In this document: piece after piece, positions 1,579-43,189 of the stretch
Numbering within the stretch: the first letter of the stretch is position 1
Layout of the letters: every line of letters begins with the position of its first letter
IMG/VR virus record: IMGVR_UViG_3300035670_000447
Location: 1 to 43,189 of that record
Direction: 5' to 3' (one strand)
Length of the DNA stretch: 43,189 nucleotides
Source: a virus
The notes under the pieces: generated by a model
Told to the model about the DNA's origin: nothing
Database searches by the model: none
What the model saw: the letters and a program-made list of their open reading frames with translations, nothing else
Position numbers and translations under genes: made by a program

Positions 1579-1597
1579 TATTTAAAATATATCACAA

Positions 1598-1969
1598 TTA
1601 TATCTTTTGTGCTACCTTAAATTCTGGAAATCTCTTTGCAAAACTCCTAAAGAACCTTTTGTCCATCTTCAATTCATCACTGTTATACATTACTCTAATG
1701 AATCTTATTATCTGTTCTGGTATGTCTAGTAGATAACGTTGTGTCTTATCCTTTGTACTTGCTGTGTCGTTAGCCCTAGTCTTTCTTGTCTCTTGCATCT
1801 GGAATATAAAAGAATCATATTTGTCTGCATTTATTGTCTTCCAATAATCAATTATTATAGCAATTACATCAAATACACTCTTATCTTTTCTTGCCTGCAT
1901 AAGCTTATCTACAAGTAATAATGAAGTACTATCGGTTTCTTTTTTAGTTACGGGATCTATTATTCTCAT
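1598..1969 (-). CDS. Conserved-position phage protein, 123 aa, unknown function
   Basis: This soluble, charged, mostly helical protein has no recognised motif. It sits directly downstream of the major capsid gene, separated only by a GC-rich hairpin, and upstream of the glycosyltransferase island. Position alone suggests a small head or head-completion protein, but nothing in the sequence proves it. The start ATG follows an A-rich stretch with no Shine-Dalgarno sequence. Confidence 0.75.
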   Translation of the reverse strand: MRIIDPVTKKETDSTSLLLVDKLMQARKDKSVFDVIAIIIDYWKTINADKYDSFIFQMQETRKTRANDTASTKDKTQRYLLDIPEQIIRFIRVMYNSDELKMDKRFFRSFAKRFPEFKVAQKI

Positions 1970-1977
1970 TTTTTTTG

Positions 1978-2003
1978 GGGGCGACAGTGTTAACCATCGC
2001 CCC
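1978..2003 (-). terminator. GC-rich hairpin downstream of the major capsid gene
   Basis: GGGGCGA (1978-1984) pairs with TCGCCCC (1997-2003) around a 12-base loop. In the minus-strand transcript it is followed by an A-run, not a U-run, so it is not a canonical intrinsic terminator. It may stabilise the 3' end of capsid mRNA or lower expression of the next genes. It is one of very few GC-rich elements outside genes here. Confidence 0.5.
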
Positions 2004-2027
2004 AGTAAATAGTTTATTTATATAACA

Positions 2028-2936
2028 CTATCCATTTATTGCAAAACCGGTTTGCTTAAAGCTTGACCTTTGAGCTAAATACTCAAGTGTCATTTCGCCT
2101 ATAATCTCACCAGCTTTATAGTCACCATCTTTTGGCCTCTCTTCAGTAAATGGTTTTCTTAGGTATGCTACCTTCCATTTATCCTCTTTGATACCAATCA
2201 TGGTTACTGTACCAGCAGAATTTCTAATGTCTCTATGAGCCATAATTCTGTGTACTCCGAAATCAGATTCATATACCATTACTGGTCTGACTAATTTCTT
2301 GTCTGACGCATCGATATATCTTGTACTACCAGCTGTATATGTAGAGATTTTTCTTTTTAATCCACCAGGTACTAATACCATATCTGGAACAGAATCATCA
2401 CCTACATCATTCCATACAAACTGGAACGCATCATTAAACATGTCCTCAGATAATGATGTACCAGAAGCTCTAGCCGTAGCATGTGATGTAATAACTGCAT
2501 CCATACCAATCATGTATCGAGCTACTCCAGATGATCCAGACGCTGCTGTTGAGTTAATCAAAGCAAATTCTAAGTCCATCTTCCACTGGCTTAACGCCTT
2601 ACTCTTTTGATAAGTATAAGGGTCAGACATGCCTGCTACTGCTACTGAACTCTCAGTACCAGATACTCTAAACGATCTACTTATAATATGTGTGAAATTT
2701 CCACGTCTTGATGGTTGTGTTAAATCACTATATGTAGTAGTTCTACCTTCAACTGATGCTGTTATTGTTGTTGGTCTTGCGGTGTAATCCTCGGTCCACT
2801 CATGATAAGTACCTTTCGCAACTGCTGTTCCTAACATAGTTGTTAATGGTGTAGAATCAGGCGAAACATCGCTGATTATATCCAATAGGTCTTCTCTTCT
2901 TACAGCATCATCATATGTAATTAATCCAAATGCCAT
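2028..2936 (-). CDS. Major capsid protein, SU10/DUF5309 type
   Basis: This 302-residue protein forms the icosahedral head shell. It shows the SU10_MCP (DUF5309) pattern: an N-terminal RREDLLDIISDVSPDSTPL segment, a TYHEWTEDY strand near residue 50, an NFTHIISRSFRVSGTESSV segment near 80-100, and a C-terminal basic and acidic HK97-fold core (KWKVAYLRKPFTEERP). The length suits the family. It follows the scaffold gene and belongs to the terminase-portal-scaffold-capsid cluster. The leader is A/T rich with no Shine-Dalgarno, which is surprising for a highly expressed gene. A hairpin lies just downstream. Confidence 0.9.
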   Translation of the reverse strand: MAFGLITYDDAVRREDLLDIISDVSPDSTPLTTMLGTAVAKGTYHEWTEDYTARPTTITASVEGRTTTYSDLTQPSRRGNFTHIISRSFRVSGTESSVAVAGMSDPYTYQKSKALSQWKMDLEFALINSTAASGSSGVARYMIGMDAVITSHATARASGTSLSEDMFNDAFQFVWNDVGDDSVPDMVLVPGGLKRKISTYTAGSTRYIDASDKKLVRPVMVYESDFGVHRIMAHRDIRNSAGTVTMIGIKEDKWKVAYLRKPFTEERPKDGDYKAGEIIGEMTLEYLAQRSSFKQTGFAING

Positions 2937-2951
2937 ATTTATTTAATTGTA

Positions 2952-2978
2952 ATCACAACAAATTATTTTTATTGTGAT
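2952..2978 (-). other. Inverted repeat between scaffold and capsid genes
   Basis: ATCACAA (2952-2958) pairs with TTGTGAT (2972-2978) across a 13-base A/T-rich loop, in the 46-bp gap before the capsid ATG. It could be an mRNA processing or translation-control hairpin, or a weak operator. There is no U-run after it on the minus strand. Confidence 0.35.
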
Positions 2979-2982
2979 AAAA

Positions 2983-3756
2983 CTATAAATTACTATTGGA
3001 CAATCTTTTAGCTAACGCAACATATCCCTCACTACCACCATACCTAGACAATAACTTTAGTCTTTTTAATTCACTATCGTTTACTTCTCGTTTGGTTTGT
3101 GAGGCAGACCTACCTTGTAGTGTGCCTGCTTGTTCTTTTGCTGTTTCAGCACTATTAACATTACTCTGGTTAACACTTGGTCTAGCATATCTATCCCATT
3201 GTTTCTTAACCCTAGATGCAATTAGAGATGCGGAAGGTAACACTGCTTGCTTACCTGACATTACAGATTGAGCATATTTATCTAACTCTGATCTGTATAT
3301 ACCAGCAACCGCGGATTCAAATAACGGATTATAAGAATCAGTGGTTGAATCCAATTCTGGATACTTCTGTTGAGCCTTAAATTCATCTAACATTAAAGAT
3401 GTGTTCTCACTATCATTTAATATCGGATTTACTACATGACTTTTCTTAGCCGTGTTTAATTCAGAAGCCTTAAAGCTTTCATCGTCTATATTGCCATACT
3501 TAGTCTGATAGCTTTTAAGCTGTTGTTTAGCTCTTTCGTATTCTTCTCTTAACGCTCTCCAATTTTTATCTTTATCATTTGTAGTGTTAGTAGTCGATTG
3601 ACCATCATCTGAATCATCGTTAACAAGTGTTTTATCTGACTTCACTGTCGAGTCACTAACTGTATCATCAAACTGATTTGGTTCGAGATTTGGCGAATAA
3701 TCTCCGGTTGTATCTTCAACCTGTGTATTGTCTGCCATATTTGTATCTTCATCCAT
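2983..3756 (-). CDS. Putative capsid scaffolding protein
   Basis: The 257-residue protein is highly charged and low in hydrophobics. It has an acidic disordered N-terminal third (about 1-65, rich in D, N, T, S) followed by a helical part (WRALREEYERAKQQLKSYQ near 66-85). The C-terminal basic segment (ELKRLKLLSRYGG) resembles the shell-binding tail of scaffolds. Its place between portal and capsid genes fits scaffold. The first ATG (3756) has a weak AGGTAG-like site upstream; a second ATG at codon 7 is possible. Sequence similarity to a named scaffold family is not recognisable, so the call rests on composition and position. Confidence 0.7.
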   Translation of the reverse strand: MDEDTNMADNTQVEDTTGDYSPNLEPNQFDDTVSDSTVKSDKTLVNDDSDDGQSTTNTTNDKDKNWRALREEYERAKQQLKSYQTKYGNIDDESFKASELNTAKKSHVVNPILNDSENTSLMLDEFKAQQKYPELDSTTDSYNPLFESAVAGIYRSELDKYAQSVMSGKQAVLPSASLIASRVKKQWDRYARPSVNQSNVNSAETAKEQAGTLQGRSASQTKREVNDSELKRLKLLSRYGGSEGYVALAKRLSNSNL

Positions 3757-3797
3757 TTTATTACTACCTATACGCTGGCGAAACGCATGCTAATAAA

Positions 3798-4010
3798 TCA
3801 TATTACCTGTTTATTAGAATGAAAGAGTTTACCATCTCTGATAACATCATCCAATCCAATAAACCATCCTGCATTACATTTAATGCACTGTACCTCCCTA
3901 GCCGATCTATATGCTAATTTATGATCACACACACGATTATCTATTATATGTACGCTGTTTGTATATCCATCCCAATAATCATCATTTGTTGACGGTAGGT
4001 TTGGAATCAT
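3798..4010 (-). CDS. Small zinc-binding-like protein, 70 aa
   Basis: The protein has a CDHK...CIKC pattern in its middle (C29, H31, then CxxC near 42-45), which could hold one zinc ion, followed by a WFIGLDD stretch. Its ATG overlaps the stop of the preceding 52-codon gene (ATGA), which supports both genes and suggests coupled translation. Function unknown; it lies between portal and scaffold genes. Confidence 0.65.
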   Translation of the reverse strand: MIPNLPSTNDDYWDGYTNSVHIIDNRVCDHKLAYRSAREVQCIKCNAGWFIGLDDVIRDGKLFHSNKQVI

Positions 4011-4165
4011 ATCTTACCAGCAATCTTATATACAATATAATAACATACTCTCTCTATGTTAGTCTCTACAAAATATTTAAAAGTAAATATTAGATCTAGC
4101 AGTTTATTACCAGTAACAATCTTTTTTACTGCTGTCTTATAGACTAGTTTGCTTTTAGTAGCCAT
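4007..4165 (-). CDS. Small basic protein, 52 aa
   Basis: A short open frame starting MATKSKLVYKTAVKKIV and ending KIAGKI. It is lysine-rich at the N terminus and then amphipathic or hydrophobic (residues 22-50, rich in I, V, Y, F). Its stop overlaps the next gene's ATG by four bases (ATGA), and it begins 2 bases after the upstream gene ends, so it fills an otherwise empty gap exactly. Function unknown; it may be a small membrane-associated protein. Confidence 0.6.
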   Translation of the reverse strand: MATKSKLVYKTAVKKIVTGNKLLDLIFTFKYFVETNIERVCYYIVYKIAGKI

Positions 4166-4166
4166 A

Positions 4167-4532
4167 TTATTTAGATTTATTTATGCTAGTATTAAATGTT
4201 TTATTCAATACATTGCTCCAAATATCTTTAAACTTATCCGAGCTTTCGTTTAACTCGCCACGTTGTTTCTTTCTTAAGTATATCGCCTTGCTTATCATTG
4301 AGTCTATCTTATTCAATATCTCTCTTGATACTTCAGCACTATGATATAGATTTAACTCTGCCCACATCCATTCTTTCTGACTTAATCCCTTTGGATTTAT
4401 CCATGAATGAATCATTCTAGCTTCTAACCATTTCTTTATTATACTCCAGCCCTCACTAGTTATTAATTCTGCTAGTGCCTCACCATCTTTACAATCTTTT
4501 ATCTCTTCTTTTGTTAGTTCTTTAGATTGCAT
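4167..4532 (-). CDS. Hypothetical protein, 121 aa, between portal and scaffold
   Basis: A mainly helical, charged protein with a tryptophan-rich middle (WLEARMIHSWINPKG, then EWMWAELNLY) and a lysine-rich C terminus. It contains no recognised motif. It follows the portal gene by 12 bases in the same transcript and is likely a virion or assembly factor, judged only from position. Confidence 0.7.
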   Translation of the reverse strand: MQSKELTKEEIKDCKDGEALAELITSEGWSIIKKWLEARMIHSWINPKGLSQKEWMWAELNLYHSAEVSREILNKIDSMISKAIYLRKKQRGELNESSDKFKDIWSNVLNKTFNTSINKSK

Positions 4533-4544
4533 ATTCTCATTATA

Positions 4545-6479
4545 CTATATTATTGGCTCTTGTTGCATCCCGCCTTGATCGGGCTGTATTGGCTGTTGTC
4601 CTGGCATACCAGGCATCTGTTGTTCTGGCTGACCCATCATCATTTGTTGATCGTTCTTTGTGAAATATCTACCAGCTCCTTTTACTCCGTTTGCTTCAAA
4701 AGCGTCTATTAGCAATTCATACATATCTGGGATATATCCTTGAGTAGCTAACATCTGTGCAACTGCTGGCTCTTTTATATACTGCAACAATTCAAACTTA
4801 GCTTTCTTCTCGTCAACTAAATTCATTGCCCTCATAGAATCAACATCTAGTATAAAGTCATAACTTCCTATTAAATCATCTGGAACTACATTAAGTTCAG
4901 CTAACTCGCCAGTATCATCAAGTTTAAGCTTAGGTAATGTTTGGCCATCAATATTGACTGGATATCTTGGTACTTGCTGTATATCTAGCTCCTGACCTTC
5001 CATTACATTCATCTCTTGTATAGACATTTCCTCATCGCTCATATCTGGAATGTACTCGTCTAATCCCAGCTTCTTAAACTCATCAATTACATTCTTGTCT
5101 ACTATTCTTAACACTAGATTTTGTTTTCTAGGATCGCTAAATACGAACTGTTGATCCATCATTAACCATAACATGTATTGTTTCTGTATTGCCTCGCTTA
5201 AGAATATCTGATTAAAATTGTCTCTTATACTTCTTGTAGTCTCAAGTGTCTTTATCTCAGTAGCTGTCTTAGTTGTACCAAACGGATCTAATGATGAATA
5301 AGCAGCAGAAGCCTCACCCATTCCCTCTTTAAACATTGATATCAACACTGAATATACATTTGTAAACTGATTTGTAGATGATACAGAGTGTTCTAATGGA
5401 ACAACATTGTTTGGATCATCCATCTGCCACACTTTACCAGCACCCCATTCTAACGTATGCATTTGTACACCCGCTGTTCTTACCTTTAATATCCTGTATA
5501 GATCCATATTAATAGCATCTATATATTGTGATGTTAACGCATTCAACGCCTTCTGTACTTTCTCAATAGGCTCTATCTCGCTCATTCCATATATATCATC
5601 TTCGATTGGAATATATCTTAAATGTACTATTGGTATCTGACCGTGATTATAAGGATTTGTATCGTCTCTTAATAATATATTATATCTTGGAGCGAATACA
5701 ATGATCCTATCTTCCCTATATTCTGTTATTATCTCAATAGTCCTAAAGTCTGGTGTCTCATCATCACCAATGTAATCGTTTAGACTTCTCATATCTTTTA
5801 TCTTAGGAATATAATTAACATCCCTCCTATCACCTACTATCTTTCCTGATGAGTCGGCTGACATTACTGCCTCTTTTAATAAGTCTAGATTTTTATAAAT
5901 AGACTTACTACTGGATACATCATTAATATCCATTAAATCTTTAACAGTTACATAGTCTCTATATTGAAACCAATTCTTAATAGTTGAGTAAGCAGGATTA
6001 TATAAACAGTCTCTATTATTCAATACTCTAAACGCAGGAGCATCATATACTACCTTACCAGAAGAATCCTTTTTATATTGCCATGTAGCAAGACCAAACG
6101 AGGCTCCATACTTTCTAGTATTCAGATCCATCATAGCCCATTTATATGCCATTGATGTATTGTCTAAACGTATTGAGTCTTCCCATTGAAATTTTAATAA
6201 CTCTGAATATATCTTAGCTTTTATTACATCGCCACCTTCACGAGGTATTAATCTACCAATAGGCTTACCACCATTTAATCTGGCCATCTTCTCAAACAAA
6301 GCAGTAAATGTTTGTGGTACAAATATCTGTGCGGAGTATGGCCACTCTGTCTCTCTTATATGTGAATGGAACAATTCATCCTTAATATCGAATGACCTAT
6401 ACCTATTCTCAAGGTCCTCCTTAGACATATTATAATGTGACTGCACCTCTTTTAAAATGCTTTCTTCTTTTTTGTTCAT
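4545..6479 (-). CDS. Portal protein, P22-type
   Basis: This 644-residue protein is the dodecameric DNA-entry ring at one head vertex. Size and gene order (directly after the large terminase apart from one small gene) fit. The N-terminal third carries wing-like mixed sequence (WPYSAQIFVPQTFTALFEKM near 44-63), the middle a P22_portal-like segment (IPIVHLRYIPIEDDIYGMSEIEPI then QKALNALTSQ), and a long stem helix follows. The C-terminal 40 residues are low-complexity Q/M/P/G, a common disordered tail in such portals. The leader has no Shine-Dalgarno. Confidence in portal is high, in the exact subfamily moderate. Confidence 0.88.
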   Translation of the reverse strand: MNKKEESILKEVQSHYNMSKEDLENRYRSFDIKDELFHSHIRETEWPYSAQIFVPQTFTALFEKMARLNGGKPIGRLIPREGGDVIKAKIYSELLKFQWEDSIRLDNTSMAYKWAMMDLNTRKYGASFGLATWQYKKDSSGKVVYDAPAFRVLNNRDCLYNPAYSTIKNWFQYRDYVTVKDLMDINDVSSSKSIYKNLDLLKEAVMSADSSGKIVGDRRDVNYIPKIKDMRSLNDYIGDDETPDFRTIEIITEYREDRIIVFAPRYNILLRDDTNPYNHGQIPIVHLRYIPIEDDIYGMSEIEPIEKVQKALNALTSQYIDAINMDLYRILKVRTAGVQMHTLEWGAGKVWQMDDPNNVVPLEHSVSSTNQFTNVYSVLISMFKEGMGEASAAYSSLDPFGTTKTATEIKTLETTRSIRDNFNQIFLSEAIQKQYMLWLMMDQQFVFSDPRKQNLVLRIVDKNVIDEFKKLGLDEYIPDMSDEEMSIQEMNVMEGQELDIQQVPRYPVNIDGQTLPKLKLDDTGELAELNVVPDDLIGSYDFILDVDSMRAMNLVDEKKAKFELLQYIKEPAVAQMLATQGYIPDMYELLIDAFEANGVKGAGRYFTKNDQQMMMGQPEQQMPGMPGQQPIQPDQGGMQQEPII

Positions 6480-6503
6480 AGTTAAATTGTAATATTTTAG
6501 AGA

Positions 6504-6806
6504 CTAAACAACAATGTTTAATTCTAATAACTTATCTGTTATACCTTTACACTTAGTTATCTTATATTCTCTCACCTCAATTTCAACCTTACCCCATCCA
6601 CTACAATCATTTATTTGTTTTAATGCATCTATTATAGAACATATAACTTTTGGATTAATAGATGTTTGATCTAATTTATCTTTAATCTTGTGCAAATCAT
6701 CATCAAATTTTGACAACATATACATAAATATAGTTGTGTTAGATGCCTGAATATTTACTAATGATATATTGTTATTATGCTCGTCTGCAGTTTGTATCTT
6801 ACCCAT
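6504..6806 (-). CDS. Hypothetical protein, 100 aa, between large terminase and portal
   Basis: A small soluble protein with a central coiled-coil-like helix (LSKFDDDLHKIKDKLDQ) and a C-terminal beta or helix segment. No family recognised. It begins 2 bases after the terminase stop codon, so it belongs to the packaging operon. Confidence 0.65.
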   Translation of the reverse strand: MGKIQTADEHNNNISLVNIQASNTTIFMYMLSKFDDDLHKIKDKLDQTSINPKVICSIIDALKQINDCSGWGKVEIEVREYKITKCKGITDKLLELNIVV

Positions 6807-6808
6807 GA

Positions 6809-8137
6809 CTATATTTTACCAATTTTAAATGCGTCTTGTCCCCACTTATATTGATATCCTACATCACTAGACTTCTTATAGCTTACTACTATATATCTTA
6901 ATGCATCCATAGCATGGTCTAACGCCTTCTCTGGTTTATCTGGTTCGTTCAAATCCTGTGCTTTTGTTACAGATTTTTCCATCCATCTATAATTCTCGAA
7001 CTCCTTAATAGTGTTCTCACAATGTTTAAATATAAATAAACTAGGTAATCCACGTTCATGTACTGTATCGTTTGTCCAAAATAGTTTAGGCACAACATGT
7101 CCACTCTTCCTTTTCAATCTTTCGGATACCTTCTCTATTCCAAATCTTACCCAGTTTTCATTACTAGTACCAATCTCCTTATCAGCTGGCGTTATATATA
7201 TATTCCTTTGACTAAACTCTCTTATCCATTGTGCACCACTTGGATCGCCATACGTCTGTCTTACATTATTATATTTGCTTGAATTAATGATACCCGCATG
7301 ATAATCAATCGTCATACCAGTTTTATAATACTCATCTATGATAAACATATTATCATCATTATCCACTGTTACCCATAAACACACAGTAGGATTTGTACTT
7401 CCAAAATCTATACCTCTGTATATATACCAATTGCTAGGAATATCAAAAGGATCGCATACATGTATATCTCTCTCAAAGTCTTTATATACTAATCCAGTAA
7501 ACTTTCTAAAGTCTGCCATGTACTCTTGTGCAAAGGTATCTTCTGTTAACTCTTGTTTAGCATTCTCTATCTCAGACTCAGGTACATATGGATTATCATA
7601 ACTAGAGAACCTCCATGATTTATACAACTTATTATCTTTCTGACCAATATTATATAAATCAAAGAAATGATTATATCCCTTAGGAGTAGATATAAATACA
7701 ACAGGAGCTTCATAATCAGTCAATGTAGGCCTTAATACTTCTTGCCACAACCAATCCCAGTTTCTAATAGACGCTATCTCATCAATAACTAATCCGTTTA
7801 ACTTAACGCCTCTTAAACTATCTGGATTTTCTGCACCCTTTAACTCTATTATTGATCCATTATTTAACTCGAATGACAAATCAGTCTCGTTTATTTTAAC
7901 AACACTACCATCTGGCAATGTATATATTAGTTTCTTGAAGTCTGACCAATGAATACTTTTAGCCTGTCTGTATGTTGGATTGACTATCCAGTATTTTCCT
8001 ACACTTGTGATAGCCCAGTTTAGTGTAATTAATTGTGCTAGTGTGGATTTACCACTACGTCTACCTGCACAAACAACTTTGAATCTATGGTGATCATCCC
8101 ATACTTCTGTCTGCCATCTATTCAGTTTTATTTCCAT
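6809..8137 (-). CDS. terL: Terminase large subunit
   Basis: The 442-residue packaging motor has an N-terminal ATPase with Walker A GRRSGKST (residues 25-32), an adenine or Q-type site at RWQTEVW, Walker B LVID-E with acidic pair D119-E120, and coupling motif STPKG (150-154). The C-terminal RNase H-like nuclease shows D244 in RGIDFGST, D298 in TYGDPSG, and D407/D411 in ALDHAMDALRY, the metal-binding aspartates. It cuts concatemers and pumps DNA through the portal. Its start overlaps the small-subunit gene by 20 bases. Confidence 0.96.
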   Translation of the reverse strand: MEIKLNRWQTEVWDDHHRFKVVCAGRRSGKSTLAQLITLNWAITSVGKYWIVNPTYRQAKSIHWSDFKKLIYTLPDGSVVKINETDLSFELNNGSIIELKGAENPDSLRGVKLNGLVIDEIASIRNWDWLWQEVLRPTLTDYEAPVVFISTPKGYNHFFDLYNIGQKDNKLYKSWRFSSYDNPYVPESEIENAKQELTEDTFAQEYMADFRKFTGLVYKDFERDIHVCDPFDIPSNWYIYRGIDFGSTNPTVCLWVTVDNDDNMFIIDEYYKTGMTIDYHAGIINSSKYNNVRQTYGDPSGAQWIREFSQRNIYITPADKEIGTSNENWVRFGIEKVSERLKRKSGHVVPKLFWTNDTVHERGLPSLFIFKHCENTIKEFENYRWMEKSVTKAQDLNEPDKPEKALDHAMDALRYIVVSYKKSSDVGYQYKWGQDAFKIGKI

Positions 8138-10716: not shown

Positions 10717-10950
10717 TTAAACTAAACTATTCACATATTCCAGAAGGTCTTGTTTAGTATAAACAAACTCTTCTGATACATGATTATTATTTATCAAATA
10801 TTGTATCATACGCAAATTTATATTCTCACCATCATCACTATTGAATATTCTTACGTTCATGTCAATACTCTTAATGATCCCAACACTTATTGTGTTGTTA
10901 AATATATAATACACTCTATCGCCTATATTATATTTAGTTTTAATATCCAT
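10717..10950 (-). CDS. Small protein with MDIKTKYNIGD N terminus, 77 aa
   Basis: This is a paralogue of the neighbouring 144-residue protein: both begin with the same 11 residues and keep similar DNA around the start codon. The fold looks like a short beta barrel (KYNIGDRVYYIF, VGIIKSIDMNVRIF) of the kind seen in KOW or SH3 modules. It lacks the zinc ribbon of its paralogue. Function unknown. Confidence 0.6.
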   Translation of the reverse strand: MDIKTKYNIGDRVYYIFNNTISVGIIKSIDMNVRIFNSDDGENINLRMIQYLINNNHVSEEFVYTKQDLLEYVNSLV

Positions 10951-10959
10951 ATTAAAAAA

Positions 10960-11394
10960 TTAACTAAATCTCTTAGCGTTAGCACAAACAGTACACATGT
11001 TTCCGTGTATGCTAGGCAATCCATGTGAGTCACATTCTGGACAGTGGAACCAAGATAATCCATCAAAGAAAACATCCTTACCTTGTTTTTCAGTACACAC
11101 TTTACACTTTATTGGATTCTTTGCTCTAGTCTTAAGCTCTTTTTGTAACAAGTATTCCTCTTCACTATAGTTTTCTACACACAAATTCCATAAACTTGTC
11201 ATGTTAAGTGCTTTTTTTATAGATCCATTTTCTCCATCAACAAAGTAAAACATCTTAATATTATCACCGATGACAGATGCCTTAATTAAATTAATTATGC
11301 TCTTATTAGTTTTAGTTATGTATACACCTCTATCCATAATTTCGAATAAAAAATAAGCTGTATCTCCAATGTTATATTTTGTTTTAATATCCAT
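10960..11394 (-). CDS. Beta-barrel plus zinc-ribbon protein, 144 aa
   Basis: The N terminus (MDIKTKYNIGD) is shared with the downstream 77-residue protein, showing a tandem duplication. The C-terminal 50 residues hold three CxxC pairs (CKVC, CPEC, CTVC), a zinc-ribbon-like array that may bind nucleic acid or protein. It is one base upstream of the annealing-protein gene's stop and belongs to the same early transcript. Function unknown. Confidence 0.65.
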   Translation of the reverse strand: MDIKTKYNIGDTAYFLFEIMDRGVYITKTNKSIINLIKASVIGDNIKMFYFVDGENGSIKKALNMTSLWNLCVENYSEEEYLLQKELKTRAKNPIKCKVCTEKQGKDVFFDGLSWFHCPECDSHGLPSIHGNMCTVCANAKRFS

Positions 11395-12276: not shown

Positions 12277-12441
12277 TTAAGCACGACTCTTATATTTATA
12301 TTTACCCCTCACACAAAATATCCTTTCTTCTCTTCTCATACTACGAAAAGGAATGTTAGGACCAATCATACAGGGCGTCATATCATCAAAATTACCATCA
12401 ACATCATTACACAACTCTGCTTTAGTTTTTATTTGTTTCAT
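12277..12441 (-). CDS. Miniature paralogue (54 aa) of the neighbouring 200-aa protein
   Basis: The intact frame begins MKQIKTKAELC and ends RGKYKYKSRA. Its last 20 residues match the neighbour's RREERIFCVRGKYKYKSR segment, and about 60 bp of DNA there are nearly identical. The start regions and leaders (AGTAGTTTATATAACA) also match, so the gene looks like a recent duplicate with the middle 140 residues lost or replaced. Being open and having its own leader, it is probably expressed; function unknown. Confidence 0.55.
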   Translation of the reverse strand: MKQIKTKAELCNDVDGNFDDMTPCMIGPNIPFRSMRREERIFCVRGKYKYKSRA

Positions 12442-12454
12442 TTTGTTATATAAA

Positions 12455-13057
12455 CTACTTAAACGGTTTAAACACTACCTTACCATTCTCAACACCTAAT
12501 CTTCCAACACGACTTTTATACTTATATTTACCCCTCACACAAAATATCCTTTCTTCTCTTCTCGCACTATTACAAATACGATCTTTAATATATGTCTCTT
12601 CATCCTCATCAATACTACCATCAGCATCATAGCAATATGTATTTATACAGCAAGTAGTATCATCAGCAATAGCACCAAGTGTAATATAACTAACTGAACC
12701 ATGGCCCATCCAACAGTATTTCAAACCAATACTCGCCTTAAATATCTTTAGTTTGCGTGATTCAGCTTTAAGAGGCAAAGAAAATTGCATCGGAAATTTT
12801 TTAATAACTGATTTATTCGCTAAAGTAAATTTAACAAAGAAATCTACATACTCTCCGACCTCTTTATATTTGGCGTAATCTATTGTTCCGTTACCTAATT
12901 CAAAGTTAAATTTTATACTATCAGAATAATCCTCCCAATAATCCTCCCAAGCATCAGTTTCTTTAAATTGACTTAAATATTCCTTAAAATCCTTAGTCCA
13001 CAAAGATGGAATATAAATATCACTACACAACCTTTTTTTAGTTCTTATTTGTTTCAT
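12455..13057 (-). CDS. Unknown protein, 200 aa, full-length partner of the mini paralogue
   Basis: An acidic middle (TDAWEDYWEDYSDSIKF near 30-46) and a cysteine-bearing C-terminal half (KYCWMG, TCCINTYC, RICNS) lead to a basic tail. No family recognised. I chose the ATG at 13057 (MKQIRTKK) instead of the longer frame to 13198. It matches the mini paralogue's start, follows a shared leader, and the extra N-terminal residues would cross the promoter and the HNH gene. Confidence 0.65.
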   Translation of the reverse strand: MKQIRTKKRLCSDIYIPSLWTKDFKEYLSQFKETDAWEDYWEDYSDSIKFNFELGNGTIDYAKYKEVGEYVDFFVKFTLANKSVIKKFPMQFSLPLKAESRKLKIFKASIGLKYCWMGHGSVSYITLGAIADDTTCCINTYCYDADGSIDEDEETYIKDRICNSARREERIFCVRGKYKYKSRVGRLGVENGKVVFKPFK

Positions 13058-13085
13058 TCTGTTATATAAACTACTTACTAATACT

Positions 13086-13150
13086 ACTTTATCATACTTA
13101 ATATTACTTGTCAATATATATTTGACAGTATACATTATTCTGATAATATA
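13086..13150. promoter_or_regulatory. Divergent promoter with palindromic operator
   Basis: TGTCAA (13109-13114) and TTGACA (13122-13127) form a 6-7-6 inverted repeat, each arm being a perfect -35 box for one strand. Minus strand: TTGACA, 17-bp spacer, TAAAGT (13091-13086), giving a start near 13079 for the 200-residue gene. Plus strand: TTGACA, then TAATAT (13144-13149) after 16 bp, giving a start at or next to the HNH ATG. A repressor on the palindrome would switch both genes off together. Confidence 0.6.
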
Positions 13151-13155
13151 TATGT

Positions 13156-13530
13156 ATGAACAAAAAAGAAATAAAGAAACTCGATGATTTATGGTCAAGA
13201 CTTGTTAAGCTATCCGCAAACAATAAATGCGAATACTGTGGTAAAACAAACAACTTAAACTCACATCATGTTTATAGCCGATCTAACAGGACTATGAGAT
13301 GGTTAGTTGATAACGGAATCTGTCTTTGTGTAGCACACCACACTTTATCTAACTTTTCAGCACATAAATCGCCAATAGATTTTATTGAATACATGAAGAC
13401 ACTACGAGGTGAAACATGGTATAATGAACTAAAAGTTAAAGCAAAAGGTCAGGTAATCAAACAACAATTCTCTGAAATAGAAAGCTACTTAAAAAACTTG
13501 GAAGAGACTCTCATAAAAATACTGGGTTGA
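13156..13530 (+). CDS. HNH-type endonuclease-like protein (NinG-like zinc nuclease)
   Basis: The only plus-strand gene. Its 124 residues show a CEYCGKTNN knuckle (C25, C28), the LNSHHVYSRSN motif with H37-H38, then DNGICLCVAHH (C58, H61, H62). These are the zinc and active-site elements of HNH/NinG-type proteins. A SAHKSPIDFIEYM helix and a lysine-rich coiled C terminus follow. It would nick or cut DNA during recombination or packaging. It is divergent from the early gene cluster and convergent with the replication gene. The mRNA appears leaderless. Confidence 0.7.
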   Translation: MNKKEIKKLDDLWSRLVKLSANNKCEYCGKTNNLNSHHVYSRSNRTMRWLVDNGICLCVAHHTLSNFSAHKSPIDFIEYMKTLRGETWYNELKVKAKGQVIKQQFSEIESYLKNLEETLIKILG

Positions 13531-13702: not shown

Positions 13703-14776
13703 TTATATATTCTTCAAAATGGACTTATAATTTCGAAGTATCTCTACTCCTCGTTTGATATCGTAGTCGCTTTTGTTTGATTGAGCCTCTATTTCTTTAA
13801 AGACCTTGCTTTCGAGTTGAAGATGCAAAGACGCACTCGATGGGTTTGCTAATCGGTCTCGTAAGTTTAGAAATTGGCCTATTCTGTCTTCATGGGTTCT
13901 GAACAACATATCAGGATTCAACTTGTCCTTGTAAAATGAATGCCCTTTAGCCCTCCTCATGGCTTCTAAGATTTGATCGTATGTGTATTCTCTTAACCAC
14001 GTATTGAAGTTCTTTTCCCATGATTTACTTGAAGTGTACCGTGTACCCCACTCTTTGTTGAATTCCTCTAAGAAGTTTTTTATCCTCGCGCGTGCGCGTA
14101 TGTTATATATTTCTTTTTCTTTTTCTTTTTCTTTTTCTTTGTTACTTTCTTTTTCTTTTTCTTTTTCTTTTTCTTTAAAACGTATTATATTTTTACTATT
14201 GTTTTTGTCGTTCAGGCATTTTTCTAAATCAGTAGCTCGTTTTGTGTTCACTTGTATGTTCACTTCGTGTTCACTTGTATGTTCATTCGGGTGTTCATTC
14301 GGGTGTTCACTTTGAAAATGATGGCCATTGTTGTCCTTGTCTCCCAAGTCTTTTTCGATAGTGTTTGTATGTTCACTCGTATGTTCATTCGGGTGTTCAT
14401 TCGGGTGTTCACTTCGTGTTCGTTCGGGTGTTCGTTTCGTGTTCACTTTCTCCTCTAAACCAGATTCAGAATTAATATCATAAATTGTTGTATCTATAAT
14501 CTTAGCAATAGTTCCCTTGGAGTTTGTCCTAAATGTAGCAAAATTATATCTCTTTAAGAATAATTTATCTCTTCTGTATACTTGGACTGTTACGCCATAT
14601 GATCTAAAATCACCTATTATACACTCTCCAATATCCATATCTATTGGACCGTCTATGTTTGTTCTCTTAGCTCGTACAGCAATAATAGTTAATAGAAGAA
14701 ATGCAGTAGGTCTCTTGCTTAAAATATTATTTAAGCTAGGAGAGTTTCTTAATAATTTTATAAATGAATTTCCCAT
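13703..14776 (-). CDS. Replication initiation protein (DnaD-like), with origin repeats inside the gene
   Basis: The 357-residue protein has an N-terminal part (1-105) consistent with a winged-helix replisome organiser and a C-terminal DnaD-like region (about 250-340). The latter contains SSKSWEKNFNTWLREYTYDQI then LEAMRRAKGHSFYKDKLNP, as seen in phage helicase loaders. Between them lies a low-complexity linker: EHPN/EHTS repeats at about 123-180 and KEKEKE at about 200-225. The linker DNA carries iterons and an A/T-rich tract, as in lambda O. It would bind the origin and recruit host helicase. A 120-base leader with an attenuator-like hairpin precedes it. Confidence 0.8.
   Translation of the reverse strand: MGNSFIKLLRNSPSLNNILSKRPTAFLLLTIIAVRAKRTNIDGPIDMDIGECIIGDFRSYGVTVQVYRRDKLFLKRYNFATFRTNSKGTIAKIIDTTIYDINSESGLEEKVNTKRTPERTRSEHPNEHPNEHTSEHTNTIEKDLGDKDNNGHHFQSEHPNEHPNEHTSEHEVNIQVNTKRATDLEKCLNDKNNSKNIIRFKEKEKEKEKESNKEKEKEKEKEIYNIRARARIKNFLEEFNKEWGTRYTSSKSWEKNFNTWLREYTYDQILEAMRRAKGHSFYKDKLNPDMLFRTHEDRIGQFLNLRDRLANPSSASLHLQLESKVFKEIEAQSNKSDYDIKRGVEILRNYKSILKNI
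14087..14100. other. Alternating purine-pyrimidine tract (Z-DNA-prone)
   Basis: CGCGCGTGCGCGTA is the most G+C-rich run in the region and strictly alternates purine and pyrimidine. It encodes IRARARI in the replication protein. It lies 10 bases from the polypyrimidine tract, so negative supercoiling could favour Z-DNA here next to an unwinding site. Confidence 0.5.
14111..14176. repeat. Polypyrimidine/polypurine hexamer tract inside the replication gene
   Basis: Two blocks of TTTTTC hexamers, about five copies each (14111-14140 and 14146-14176), are separated by GTTAC. The coding strand is all purine (AAAGAG/GAAAAA) and specifies KEKEKE. Mirror-symmetric polypurine DNA can form triplex or melt easily, which suits a DNA-unwinding element beside the iterons. 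Confidence 0.75.
14246..14445. repeat. Iteron clusters, candidate replication origin
   Basis: GTTCA (or GTTCG) cores begin at 14246, 14258, 14269, 14281, 14293 and 14305, then at 14371, 14383, 14395, 14407, 14418, 14430 and 14441. Steps are 12 bp with three of 11 bp. The common unit is TGTTCAyTyGG. Because of the 11-bp steps the same DNA word is read in different codon frames (SEH in one, VNI/VNT in another). That argues that the DNA, not the peptide, is conserved. Position inside an initiator gene beside an easily melted tract mirrors the lambda origin. Confidence 0.75.
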
Positions 14777-34500: not shown

Positions 34501-34869
34501 TTATTTAAACTCTAAAATATGTAACGTTATATTATCGTTGCTACCTCTAGCAAACAAATCCTTCTGTACGTCTAACATTATCTTCTCGTCTGGATACAAC
34601 TTTATTCCGTTGCTAGAACTAACAGTATTATCACCAATCCATACTGAATTTAACGTATCACTATTATATATAATAACAGACCTTCGTTGATCCAATTCAG
34701 TATCTGGCAGTCTATACGATATCGATGCACTTGATAATAATACAGTTGAAGATATTGGGCTTATCATACCGCGTATTACTACACGTTTTCCCGCCTGTAC
34801 ACCATTTTCATGATCATGTTCCTCATAGTCCATCTGGGGTTGCATGTTCCCCGTGTGAAGTGATCCCAT
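34501..34869 (-). CDS. Small virion-associated protein, 122 aa
   Basis: A beta-rich protein (VIRGMISPISSTVLLSSAS; SVIIYNSDTLNSVWIGDN) that precedes the fibre gene. It resembles a compact beta-sandwich adaptor or head fibre. The start is uncertain: ATG at 34869, at codon 9 or at codon 13. The last overlaps the upstream gene by only 11 bases. Function unknown; position suggests fibre attachment. Confidence 0.6.
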   Translation of the reverse strand: MGSLHTGNMQPQMDYEEHDHENGVQAGKRVVIRGMISPISSTVLLSSASISYRLPDTELDQRRSVIIYNSDTLNSVWIGDNTVSSSNGIKLYPDEKIMLDVQKDLFARGSNDNITLHILEFK

Positions 34870-35200: not shown

Positions 35201-35228
35201 ATATTTATTGTATCAAAAATATTTATAC

Positions 35229-35247
35229 ATAACCAAGTTTATAATTA
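35229..35247. repeat. 19-bp direct repeat, copy downstream of the DNA methyltransferase
   Basis: ATAACCAAGTTTATAATTA is identical to 36633-36651. On the minus strand this copy still reads NYKLGYV-stop, an orphaned duplicate of the last codons of the glycosyltransferase gene that precedes the methyltransferase. Confidence 0.85.
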
Positions 35248-36630
35248 CTACCTCTTAAGAAATGCTGTTTTAAAATATCTAAGGTTTGCAGGTATGCCTT
35301 GTACATTAGAATATCCTTCAATTACTTTTTTTATTCTTGGATAACATACTTCTTCAGCAATACCATTTTCATTGTTTGTACAAAGAATAAACTTTCTATT
35401 ACCACCATCTTCTTTGTTTAGTTCAAGTACGGCGTGTCCTGTTGTTCCTGAACCTGCAAAAAAGTCAATGACTCTGCCATCCTTTTTCGCTTTGATGCCA
35501 GCAATTTCCAAGCACCTATTGAGAAACCTAAGGGGTTTTTTCCCATTCCTAAATTCGACCCCACCTTCATAACCAACATTATTAAATTCATTTACAAAGT
35601 CAAAATAATTAGGGTAGGGTACACTTTTTGTAGCTTTTCTATTTTGTGGTACTCCTTGAAAATAATCACCGTTAAGCCTTTTATCTGTCTCTGGAATTAG
35701 AAAATATCTAAAACCTAATGAATCATTACCCATATTATCAACTTTATATAAGTATCCCTTGTTAATGCCAATAAATTGATTTAAGTGTTTCATAAAAAAT
35801 CTGCCACTACTGTTCCCATCTTTAATCGTACCTCGAATGCTTATTTTTTTTAAATTGGTTACTGATGGCTCAATTCTTAATATTTCATATTCATTAGGCT
35901 TAAAAATTGATACCTTTTTTCCTCCCATTGTCAACTTTTCGGGAATAGCATTTTTCTCTATCACCTGATAAAGATATTCCTTGTTTGAAAGATTATCTTG
36001 ATTTCGTTTTATTGTCTTAAATGCTCGACTTCTCCTATACATTAGGAGATACTCTACAACTTCGTGAAAGTCCTTGTCGCCCTTAAGTATCCTGTCTTCG
36101 TGTCTTACTTTAATAGTAAAGGTGGTTAAGTAATTGTTATTTTCAAAAACCTCGTCACACAAGACTTTAAGTTGTGCAAATTCATTTTCATTTATCGACA
36201 AAAGAATTACTCCGTCTTCTTTCAGTAAAGACTTTGCGAGTAATAATCTACTATTCATAAAACTAAGCCACTTGCTGTGTTTATATAGATCATCTTTTTC
36301 TACGTATGAGTCATTATACTTAAAATCTTTGTTTCCTGTGTTATATGGAGGGTCAATATAAATAACATCTATCTTACCTGCGTGAGTATAGTTTAATACG
36401 GATAAAGCGTGGTAATTGTCACCTTCAATAAGTAAATTTACTGGTAGATTTTCATCAGAAATAATTGCTCTATCCTTAACCTCTTCGAGTACTGGCAATT
36501 CCTTTTTACATCTTTCAACAACATCTTCTGGTTTATCTTCCCACACTAGCCCAAACTTTTTTCTTGCCTTGAGCTGTTTTACCATCTCAATTAGTTGTTC
36601 TTTCGATAATTCGTTTAATTTCATATTCAT
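35248..36630 (-). CDS. Adenine-specific DNA methyltransferase, type III Mod-like (beta class)
   Basis: The 460-residue enzyme places the catalytic motif DPPYNTGN (D93-Y96) before the SAM-binding motif DFFAGSGTTG (389-398), the beta-class order typical of type III Mod subunits. It transfers a methyl group from SAM to adenine N6. The middle 200 residues are the target-recognition region. No Res helicase/nuclease gene is present, so it probably protects phage DNA from host restriction. The start overlaps the upstream stop codon. The gene is bounded by 19-bp direct repeats and appears inserted. Confidence 0.9.
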   Translation of the reverse strand: MNMKLNELSKEQLIEMVKQLKARKKFGLVWEDKPEDVVERCKKELPVLEEVKDRAIISDENLPVNLLIEGDNYHALSVLNYTHAGKIDVIYIDPPYNTGNKDFKYNDSYVEKDDLYKHSKWLSFMNSRLLLAKSLLKEDGVILLSINENEFAQLKVLCDEVFENNNYLTTFTIKVRHEDRILKGDKDFHEVVEYLLMYRRSRAFKTIKRNQDNLSNKEYLYQVIEKNAIPEKLTMGGKKVSIFKPNEYEILRIEPSVTNLKKISIRGTIKDGNSSGRFFMKHLNQFIGINKGYLYKVDNMGNDSLGFRYFLIPETDKRLNGDYFQGVPQNRKATKSVPYPNYFDFVNEFNNVGYEGGVEFRNGKKPLRFLNRCLEIAGIKAKKDGRVIDFFAGSGTTGHAVLELNKEDGGNRKFILCTNNENGIAEEVCYPRIKKVIEGYSNVQGIPANLRYFKTAFLKR

Positions 36631-37313
36631 ATATAACCAAGTTTATAATTAATATCATAACGCTTGCAATAATCTGTATATATATACAGGGCATTATTCG
36701 ACTCCCAATTATCATAGCGTCCATGTTCTATTGAGTATGATATGTTAGACATATCTAATAAGAATTTATATTTACCTGTTAGACTTATCCTGTGTAGAAC
36801 AGAGAACCAATCCATGCCTGCATATTTATCTAAACCCTCATCAAACCCACCAACTTCATATATAGCACTCTTGGGTACACTACAGAAGTTGCCCTCAATA
36901 ACACTAAAATCACATACAGATATAGAAGCTTTATCATCAATTCTTGGATCTTTCCACACTGAACTTACAAACTTCTTATCAGAATACTTATTGCCAACAC
37001 CACTTACTATATAATCTTTATAATACCAGAACTTTGATAACGCATCTGGATTTATACTTGTATAATCTTGTATTGATACTATTAATTCACCAGACGACTC
37101 TTTAATCAACATATTATATAATTTATTCAATACCCAATAATCACCATCGCTTTTAGGAGGGTCTTGTATCCACTTGAAATTTATATCTAATTCTGGCTTA
37201 TGTGGTGAACCTATTATCCACTCGAAGTCTGTATGCGTCTGTCTTCTTAACGCCTTCTCTATTATCTTAAGACCATCTAAATCTCTATTAGACGGAGTTA
37301 TAACAGAAATCAT
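36627..37313 (-). CDS. GT2-like glycosyltransferase, 228 aa
   Basis: The N-terminal MISVITPSNRDLDGLKIIEKAL is the nucleotide-binding start of a GT-A fold. The middle carries the QDYTSINPDAL region in place of a classical DxD, and the later VGGFDEGLDKYAGMDWF resembles the catalytic-base loop of GT2 proteins. It would transfer a sugar from a nucleotide donor. Its start overlaps the methyltransferase gene upstream (ATGA). The last codons are duplicated beyond the DNA methyltransferase gene. Confidence 0.75.
   Translation of the reverse strand: MISVITPSNRDLDGLKIIEKALRRQTHTDFEWIIGSPHKPELDINFKWIQDPPKSDGDYWVLNKLYNMLIKESSGELIVSIQDYTSINPDALSKFWYYKDYIVSGVGNKYSDKKFVSSVWKDPRIDDKASISVCDFSVIEGNFCSVPKSAIYEVGGFDEGLDKYAGMDWFSVLHRISLTGKYKFLLDMSNISYSIEHGRYDNWESNNALYIYTDYCKRYDINYKLGYI
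36633..36651. repeat. 19-bp direct repeat, copy at the end of the glycosyltransferase gene
   Basis: Identical to 35229-35247. It encodes NYKLGYI, the last residues of the 228-residue glycosyltransferase, just before the methyltransferase start. Confidence 0.85.
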
Positions 37314-40575: not shown

Positions 40576-41268
40576 CTAATAATAATATTCTCCAAATAAA
40601 ATATACTTATACTTCCCCCAGTACTTCCACCATCTTAATAGTGCGTCACGTTGTTGGTCAACACTTGGTTGTACTAACTTTGATGTCGTACCACCTAAAT
40701 GTGTCAACTGTACTTTCTCAAATATTGTCCTAGTAGTATACCCATTCTTCTTTATTCCTACTCCCAAATCTACATCATCCATTCCTACCATTAATCCCCA
40801 GTCATCGATTGGCCTATATGCCTTTCTTTGGAATGCTACTGCATATCCTGCAAACCAATCACACCTTAAGTATGGATCGGTTACCCATGGATTCATTGTC
40901 TTAGTCTTAAACGGACGCCCGACACGTCTGCCGTCAATACCAGTTATCCCAACGTGAGCCTTAAGATTATTAAGGAATGGGATATACCATCCACTATCCA
41001 CCATCGTATCATTATCTAACCAAAACACAATATCACTCTTCGCAAACTCCATACTCTTATTCCTTGTAGCTGGACATCCAATATTCTTATCCTCTCTTAT
41101 TAATATTGCGTTAGGATATATCTCTCTTACCAAGTCACTTATTGGCTCCACTGATCCATTGTCAGTAAATATTAACTCATGTTCTATATCAGTGTATCTC
41201 TTTAGTCTTTCCAAAAATTCTTTTGTTATATTGTATTGGTTCCAAGCCAAAGATATTATAGTTATCAT
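40576..41268 (-). CDS. GT2 glycosyltransferase (tandem duplicate 2)
   Basis: The 230-residue enzyme shows the full GT2 set: ISLAWNQYNITKEFLERL start, FTDNGS, NIGCPATRNKSME, DxD motif DND (85-87), and MDDVDLGVGIKKNG with the acidic catalytic loop. It closely matches its neighbour along its whole length, so one arose from the other. Differences cluster around 115-130, where the acceptor loop usually is. Confidence 0.88.
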   Translation of the reverse strand: MITIISLAWNQYNITKEFLERLKRYTDIEHELIFTDNGSVEPISDLVREIYPNAILIREDKNIGCPATRNKSMEFAKSDIVFWLDNDTMVDSGWYIPFLNNLKAHVGITGIDGRRVGRPFKTKTMNPWVTDPYLRCDWFAGYAVAFQRKAYRPIDDWGLMVGMDDVDLGVGIKKNGYTTRTIFEKVQLTHLGGTTSKLVQPSVDQQRDALLRWWKYWGKYKYILFGEYYY

Positions 41269-41301
41269 CTTGATATGTTCTTTAATCTGTATTACTACAC
41301 A

Positions 41302-41988
41302 CTACCAGTATTTATATTTTTCAAAATACTTCTTATGGCGTATCCAGTATCTCCACCATCTTACTAACACCTCATACTGTTTCTCACTATTCGGTTGCAC
41401 TGACTTAGCAGATACGCTAGTCAGATGAACTAATGGTACTTCCTCTCTAATCTTCTTCGCTCTATAACCATTACGTTTTATACCAACACCTAAATCTACA
41501 TCGTCCATGTTAACCATCAGTCCCCAATCATTAATAGGTTTATATGCTTCCTTCTTAAACGCTACTGCGTATCCAACAAACCAGTCACAGTCTACATCAA
41601 AATTACTATCCCACGGGAACATCGCATTGAATGGATTGCCTACACACCTACCATCAATACCAGTTATACCTACAGACCCTTTAAGATTATTTAAGAATGG
41701 AATATACCATCCATTATCTACCATCGTATCGTTGTCTAACCAGAATACAATGTTATTATTTGCAAGTTTCATGCTCTTATTTCGTGTAGCTGGACATCCA
41801 ATGTTTTTATCTTCTCTCACTAATATTGCATCGGGGTATATCTCTTTTACTAATTCGCTTATTGGTTCTTCTGATCCATTATCAGTAAATATCAATTCGT
41901 GGTCTATATCAGTATATTTCTTTAATCTCTCTAGAAATTCTTTTGTTGTTTTATATTGGTTCCAAGCCAAAGATATTATGGTTATCAT
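41302..41988 (-). CDS. GT2 glycosyltransferase (tandem duplicate 1)
   Basis: 228 residues with the same motif series as the adjacent paralogue (ISLAWNQYKTTKEFLERL, NIGCPATRNKSM, DND, MDDVDLGVGIKRNG). The two proteins differ at residues around 112-128 and at the C termini. Such a pair often adds the same sugar class to two different acceptors. Confidence 0.88.
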   Translation of the reverse strand: MITIISLAWNQYKTTKEFLERLKKYTDIDHELIFTDNGSEEPISELVKEIYPDAILVREDKNIGCPATRNKSMKLANNNIVFWLDNDTMVDNGWYIPFLNNLKGSVGITGIDGRCVGNPFNAMFPWDSNFDVDCDWFVGYAVAFKKEAYKPINDWGLMVNMDDVDLGVGIKRNGYRAKKIREEVPLVHLTSVSAKSVQPNSEKQYEVLVRWWRYWIRHKKYFEKYKYW

Positions 41989-42199: not shown

Positions 42200-43189
42200 T
42201 ATTTTTTGAACTCCTTGTCCCACTCTTTAACTATCTTACGCCAACTATATTCATCTCTTGCCCACTTCATCATCTCTGTTCTATCAACTCCACAATTAGT
42301 CTTAGTATCTTTTAATAATTCTATCAACTTAGATTTATATTCATCTTTTATCTCTGGTTCATATATATCTAATTCATCCACATTAATTTTTATTCCGTAT
42401 CTAGAAGTCTGTTTTAAAGCAGCGTAATCACAAACTACAGGTATTGCACCCATTGCTTGACACTTAATAGCAGTTATACAGTTTATCTCATAAAAATGTG
42501 TTGGATATGCCCATATCCCAGACGACAGAGTTTCTTCTATTATCTTATCTTGGCCTATCCTCCCTAAATGAACTATACCGTCTTGATTCATTAAACCATT
42601 TATATGCTCTTTCCATGCCTGTCTTTCTGGATTATTATTAAACATCTTATCAAACGTATTCCATCCATAACAGATATACAACATAGCCTCTGGTACTTCT
42701 TTCTTTATATCACTCCACATCTCAAGTAGATGTTGTAAACCTCTATCATATGAACTTGTATATATTATTTTATGTGGATTTCTTTTTATCTTTTTAGACT
42801 TCTCCGTCTCTTCAATCTCTTCTACATCTATACCATTACTAGTTACCAATATCTTATCTTTAAGATAACTACTATTCTTTTCATTTACAAAAGTCTCAAC
42901 ATGTGCGTCAGATAAGCATAATATCTTATCAATCTTATTAACTCTTTCTTCAGTATAATCTAATGGCGATTGAACATCATGTAGCCATAATATCTTCTTC
43001 TTCGCCTTGAGATTATAATCGAACAAATTTACACTCCTCCATACTATTAATATATTAAACTCATCCTTTAGGCTGAATGAATGCGATGATACATAGTTTA
43101 CACCATCTATTTCACAATCCTCAGTAGGATTTGCATATACAGTTACCTTATATCCAAGCTTTACTAACTCACGAGACGCTCTTATTACT
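42199..43189 (-). CDS. GT2-TPR-GT4 fusion glycosyltransferase, C-terminal part (5' part at 1-1578)
   Basis: This holds the GT-B (GT4) half of the 813-residue fusion. Reading runs in from the window end without a stop. It includes ILWLHDVQSPLDYTEERV, a VTSNGIDVEEIEE loop, and THFYEINCITAIKCQAMGAI, the E-x7-E-like nucleotide-sugar site of GT4 enzymes. The GT2 and TPR parts lie upstream across the joint, giving one protein with two catalytic domains. Confidence 0.9.
   Translation of the reverse strand, partial: VIRASRELVKLGYKVTVYANPTEDCEIDGVNYVSSHSFSLKDEFNILIVWRSVNLFDYNLKAKKKILWLHDVQSPLDYTEERVNKIDKILCLSDAHVETFVNEKNSSYLKDKILVTSNGIDVEEIEETEKSKKIKRNPHKIIYTSSYDRGLQHLLEMWSDIKKEVPEAMLYICYGWNTFDKMFNNNPERQAWKEHINGLMNQDGIVHLGRIGQDKIIEETLSSGIWAYPTHFYEINCITAIKCQAMGAIPVVCDYAALKQTSRYGIKINVDELDIYEPEIKDEYKSKLIELLKDTKTNCGVDRTEMMKWARDEYSWRKIVKEWDKEFKK
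43066..43189. repeat. Right copy of the terminal direct repeat
   Basis: Identical to bases 4-127. Joining the copies gives a circle of about 43,062 bp and restores one uninterrupted 813-codon gene across the joint. A 127-base overlap is what an assembler using k=127 would leave, but the single mismatch near its edge is unexplained. Confidence 0.95.

Follow-up and report, generated by a model that had tools for sequence, protein, structure and literature searches.

Probable insertion of a solitary Mod-like DNA methyltransferase gene behind a phage glycosyltransferase gene, with duplication of about 29 bp of the target

How restriction and modification genes come to move when no transposase is involved is a long-standing question that arose with the Helicobacter genomes. 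Passages of two articles (PMC3031569, PMC1643837) describe restriction-modification genes of all types of systems as inserting with "long and variable target duplications", and quote the description of insertion with long target duplication in Helicobacter pylori by Kobayashi and colleagues (Nobusato, Uchiyama, Ohashi, Kobayashi, Gene 2000). Here we describe a similar arrangement in a metagenomic virus record of 43,189 bp (IMG/VR record IMGVR_UViG_3300035670_000447), the whole of which was analysed and is referred to below as the window. As in the described cases, a methyltransferase gene is bracketed by a direct duplication of its target that is far longer than the usual insertion-sequence duplications, the insert carries no transposase and, at the level of gene order, a related genome is without it. 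The locus differs from them in lying in a phage rather than in a bacterial chromosome, in consisting of a single solitary methyltransferase ORF with no Res gene, in the length of the duplication (only about 29 bp), and in that its empty site is known at the gene level only; within these limits it probably adds a phage case to the group.

The phage is podovirus-like, and its contig is probably circular because the two ends of the record (1-127 and 43063-43189) share 127 bp with one mismatch, at position 3. None of the ORFs scanned was recognised as a replication gene. The region of interest is transcribed on the minus strand, where the order is glycosyltransferase, methyltransferase, an orphan copy of the glycosyltransferase tail, a 125-residue gene, a 122-residue gene and a 2720-residue fibre or spike gene. 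The features are as follows.

36627-37313, minus strand: glycosyltransferase-like gene, 228 aa, GT-A-like; the upstream neighbour with the duplicated 3' end (ORF; relatives in L060 at 40% identity and in L061-L065, and gtA of MW202524)
36623-36651, minus strand: repeat copy 1, comprising the glycosyltransferase coding tail and stop codon together with the methyltransferase start codon; 19 bp exact at 36633-36651
35248-36630, minus strand: solitary type III Mod-like beta-class DNA methyltransferase, 460 aa (PF01555 at 1.4e-29; MTase_III at 5.6e-80; PDB 7dsu, 6k0w and 4zcf; alignment)
35219-35247, minus strand: repeat copy 2, the orphan glycosyltransferase tail NYKLGYV-TAA, directly after the methyltransferase stop codon
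34823-35200, minus strand: 125-residue gene, the probable ancestral downstream neighbour of the glycosyltransferase (homologue at the same position in L060)
34501-34869, minus strand: 122-residue gene, next in the conserved order and before the large fibre or spike gene (same place and size in L060, weak similarity)

The methyltransferase gene is bracketed by an exact 19 bp direct repeat (35229-35247 and 36633-36651), as the first-pass annotation had reported, and these are the only two copies in the 43 kb record when up to 3 mismatches are allowed. The ungapped core of the pair has 27 of 29 bases identical, and a repeat finder widens it to 32 nt at 91% identity (35219-35250 and 36623-36654). 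Compared flank against flank, the ungapped match scores 23; the highest scores reached in 300 dinucleotide shuffles and in 360 pairs of real stretches from the same genome are 14 and 20, respectively. Read on the minus strand, copy 1, at the glycosyltransferase end and methyltransferase start, is TAATTATAAACTTGGTTAT-ATATGAATAT, and copy 2, behind the methyltransferase, is TAATTATAAACTTGGTTAT-GTATAAATAT. The upstream copy is indeed the coding end of the glycosyltransferase (NYKLGYI-stop in the earlier description), the gene ending in DINYKLGYI-TGA, and the downstream copy still spells NYKLGYV-TAA, again as described; it lies behind the methyltransferase stop codon and out of the methyltransferase frame, and is therefore untranslated. 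The glycosyltransferase had been held to be intact with its end rebuilt by the insertion; it is intact, and from the sequence either of the two copies could be the rebuilt one.

Both junctions are tight. The methyltransferase ATG at 36630 lies within the extended copy 1 and overlaps the glycosyltransferase stop codon as ATGA, and the methyltransferase stop codon (TAG, 35248-35250) abuts copy 2 with a gap of 0 bp. The repeat period, which is also the net insert, is 1404 bp, and if about 29 bp of this are duplication, some 1375 bp are foreign, equal to the methyltransferase coding sequence minus its start, so that the foreign portion coincides almost exactly with the ORF. There are no terminal inverted repeats at the ends of the gene, and the cassette is the methyltransferase ORF alone, with no transposase. 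Pfam scans of 29 window ORFs recognised no integrase or transposase, several others being covered by PHROGs only and the small ORFs lying outside the Pfam scans. The methyltransferase region is devoid of terminator-like sites, and its promoter-like sites of the sigma-70 type are no more frequent than in shuffled sequence (15 observed and 15.0 expected). Like a phage moron, the methyltransferase is an extra gene between two conserved phage genes; it differs in having neither a terminator of its own nor a promoter signal above background, in overlapping the upstream stop codon, and in being flanked by a target duplication. The name of moron, which the first-pass annotation had applied, is for these reasons not retained.

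Comparison with relatives points to the methyltransferase as the newcomer. In the viral contig L060, the glycosyltransferase homologue (40% identity) ends VLGYL-stop and is followed after 87 bp by a gene whose product is homologous to the 125-residue protein (E 5e-8 in a single-pair BLASTP comparison; 21% identity), then by a 121-residue gene that occupies the position of the 122-residue gene and is weakly similar to it (E 0.038), and then by a fibre gene. No methyltransferase lies between the glycosyltransferase and the 125-residue homologue, and the window methyltransferase has no match in the 74 kb record of L060, although this search was run without a positive control and is weak. The empty order that had been predicted for relatives is thus found at the gene level, in a distant relative. 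A methyltransferase adjoins the glycosyltransferase in 0 of 7 glycosyltransferase relatives, those beyond L060 being L013 and L061-L065, and the layout of the window is therefore not one that all relatives share. The glycosyltransferase relatives end in LGYI or LGYL (NLGYI-stop in L061), which indicates that the LGYI tail is native to the glycosyltransferase. Searches of viral contigs with the glycosyltransferase, the 125-residue protein or the portal gave no close relatives; the glycosyltransferase alignment used for further relatives added only L060, phage GenBank searches with the 125-residue protein and with its homologue from L060 gave no match, and none of the relatives searched offered a nucleotide-level empty site.

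Codon usage, the other comparison that had been proposed for the cassette, also sets the gene apart. Over the whole gene it departs from that of the phage (z -3.55), and the isoleucine codons ATA and ATT are used 9 and 21 times in the methyltransferase as against 545 and 254 times in the other genes (Fisher p 3e-5). G+C content fails to distinguish the cassette (0.325 vs 0.345).

The methyltransferase most resembles the Mod subunit of type III systems. Its best Pfam match is N6_N4_Mtase, its best PADLOC match is the type III methyltransferase model, and its PDB matches are solved Mod proteins (Mbo45V, 7dsu; Mod, 6k0w; EcoP15I Mod, 4zcf), all consistent with a beta-class N6/N4 methyltransferase fold. 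The motifs DPPY and DFFAGSG are both present, and in the alignment they follow the beta-class order of DPPY and then FxGxG, with a central target-recognition region. Among the proteins found, bacterial Mod subunits of Bacteroidota, Fibrobacter and Clostridia come closest, at about 58% identity, and several of them have a Res gene next to them; phage relatives are 36-62% identical in their best segments. The phage protein differs from type III Mod in having no Res partner, its neighbours being the glycosyltransferase and the 125-residue gene, and in lacking, by alignment, a C-terminal domain of roughly 110 residues that full-length bacterial Mod proteins carry. Truncation by the insertion was considered as a cause of this shortening and dropped, since other short methyltransferases (L020, L022, L033 and L070) stop near the same domain boundary. 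Judged from its motifs and matches, the protein is probably an active solitary modification enzyme that probably methylates adenine in the phage DNA, and this methylation may guard against host restriction.

The reading that we favour, with a probability of roughly 0.7, is that a solitary Mod-type methyltransferase ORF was inserted between the glycosyltransferase and the 125-residue gene, duplicating about 29 bp of the target. From the observed duplication, abutment, empty gene order and foreign codon usage we infer that insertion and duplication were a single event, and that the recombination proceeded by a mechanism with no element-borne recombinase. The first-pass annotation had proposed that the insertion duplicated the glycosyltransferase 3' end; the gene-level empty site, the deviant codons and the abutment agree with an inserted cassette, and the insertion itself would then have made the duplication. 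One event of staggered or illegitimate double-ended joining could have produced the structure, or the capture of a donor segment that already carried the tail, in either case without a recombinase encoded by the element. The glycosyltransferase retains its full C-terminus and the 125-residue gene its leader and, because the duplicated host DNA supplies the ATGA overlap, the newcomer is probably expressed by translational coupling to the glycosyltransferase. The junctions in this way show a route by which an incoming gene can spare the genes on either side and still be expressed at once. If insertion with duplication is correct, the empty site should consist of a single glycosyltransferase tail followed directly by AATATTTTTGATACAATAAATATATGGATG and the 125-residue gene. 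Against this stand the distance of L060, the sole clear empty-site relative, the shortness of the repeat, with 19 exact bp and 93% identity over 29 bp, relative to the other phage cases described below, the presence of other local partial duplications in the phage, such that the tail duplication could predate the insertion, and the contrast in the survey below, borderline for viral ORFs and absent in bacterial loci.

Similar footprints are seen around other phage methyltransferases. In a small survey made after the first case and excluding the window, 39 related viral methyltransferase ORFs were searched for direct repeats within 250 bp, and long direct repeats bracket 3 of the 39 compared with 0 of 62 other ORFs of the same contigs (Fisher p 0.055, borderline). 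The repeats measure 65/66 bp in L043 and 92/93 bp in L044, whose methyltransferase is flanked by terminase-side genes on one side and a P22-like portal gene on the other. In L056 they measure 64/64 bp and lie at the rusA start, which the duplicated DNA restores while also providing the stop codon of the methyltransferase. The L044 and L056 methyltransferases are 60% identical, yet their targets and their duplications are unrelated. A search for more members of this clade gave only those two contigs, no empty site for L044 was found in phage records, and a search with the L056 RusA protein gave distant relatives only. In the 298 kb contig L032 a type III Mod-Res pair (2883-7038) has 77 bp direct repeats (71/77) touching the ends of the operon, and in the phage contig L042 (1525-4874) a tyrosine integrase and a 716-residue methyltransferase lie together between exact 49 bp direct repeats (49/49), the second copy of which holds the methyltransferase end and the start of the next gene; this is a candidate two-gene integrative element. 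Bacterial loci show no excess (0 of 68 methyltransferase ORFs and 3 of 130 others), the 3 kb flanks used being short for units that would often be Mod plus Res.

One further locus, in the 180 kb contig L017, was excluded as a case of target duplication, since what is repeated in tandem there is the Mod gene and not a target. Full-length Mod genes of 586 and 593 aa follow one another (1109-4665) ahead of an apparent Res gene, and the 478 bp stretch that was compared is 90% identical between them.

Together with the window, the five other phage contigs extend the pattern of insertion with target duplication to phages, in the form of single methyltransferases, a Mod-Res pair and an integrase-linked methyltransferase. 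A broader generalisation, which we offer as speculative and on present evidence rather doubtful, is that phage solitary methyltransferases are a class of minimal mobile cassettes consisting of little beyond the ORF, which enter gene borders with target duplications of 30-93 bp and borrow a start codon, stop codon or ribosome site from the target, thereby being expressed immediately and leaving the host gene whole while carrying no recombinase. If this were general, phages would be both a natural vehicle and a laboratory for the process.

The main rival, given L042, is site-specific integration, with the repeats serving as attachment cores of a tyrosine recombinase that acted in trans or has since been lost. 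Elements of this kind typically integrate in the 3' end of a gene and restore that end, and the window shares with them a direct repeat at both ends, one copy of which preserves the end of the host gene; a repeat of 19-29 bp in this position would suit an attachment core, and in L042 a tyrosine integrase is paired with a methyltransferase between exact repeats. However, no recombinase gene is present in the cassette or was recognised in the window ORFs scanned, no inverted core-type sites are evident, and the repeats of the six phage contigs differ in both sequence and length and occur at gene starts as well as gene ends. We regard site-specific integration as unlikely on this evidence. Less probable again is a history in which slippage during replication, or an unequal exchange, gave a tandem copy of the glycosyltransferase tail before the methyltransferase entered between the copies. 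The phage does contain tandem family 2 glycosyltransferase paralogues (40576-41988), small neighbouring genes that have an N-terminus in common and a pair of genes sharing both ends (12282-13077), but this order requires two events, the second of which would have to fall within one copy and at a distance of 0 bp from the other, and similar brackets are known around other phage methyltransferases; it is the less economical account when compared with a single insertion event.

An ancestral methyltransferase, with the repeat arising by chance or having a function of its own, for example in coupling or regulation, would be helped by the AT-rich genome and by the fact that only 19 bp are exact, but the flank score well above the shuffle maximum, the lack of a third repeat copy, and L060 and the other glycosyltransferase relatives without the gene make it very improbable. 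Least probable is an assembly chimera joined at shared bases, conceivable in a metagenomic record, which would require two independent junctions, at a match exact over only 19 bp and so below the usual assembler words, both falling in coding register and with a stop/start overlap.

Among other features of the record, we note that the glycosyltransferase island grows by tandem duplication, two family 2 glycosyltransferase paralogues lying in tandem on the minus strand (40576-41268 and 41302-41988) with 79% identity over 300 nt. At 10717-11394 (minus strand) two adjacent small genes have a common N-terminus, MDIKTKYNIGD, and common start-region DNA (68 nt, 78%), with unrelated C-terminal parts. 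At 12282-13198 (minus strand) the DNA of a large ORF (MKQIRTKKRLCSD...ARREERIFCVRGKYKYKSR...) is 86-94% identical at both ends to that of the small gene just downstream (MKQIKTKAELCND...SMRREERIFCVRGKYKYKSRA), and a middle of about 150 residues is not common to both, as if a duplicate had gained or lost it. Finally, a 357-residue ORF at 13703-14776 (minus strand) carries repeated EHPNEHTSEH and KEKEKE tracts and 12 bp DNA repeats, and has a strongly deviant codon usage (z -6.4).
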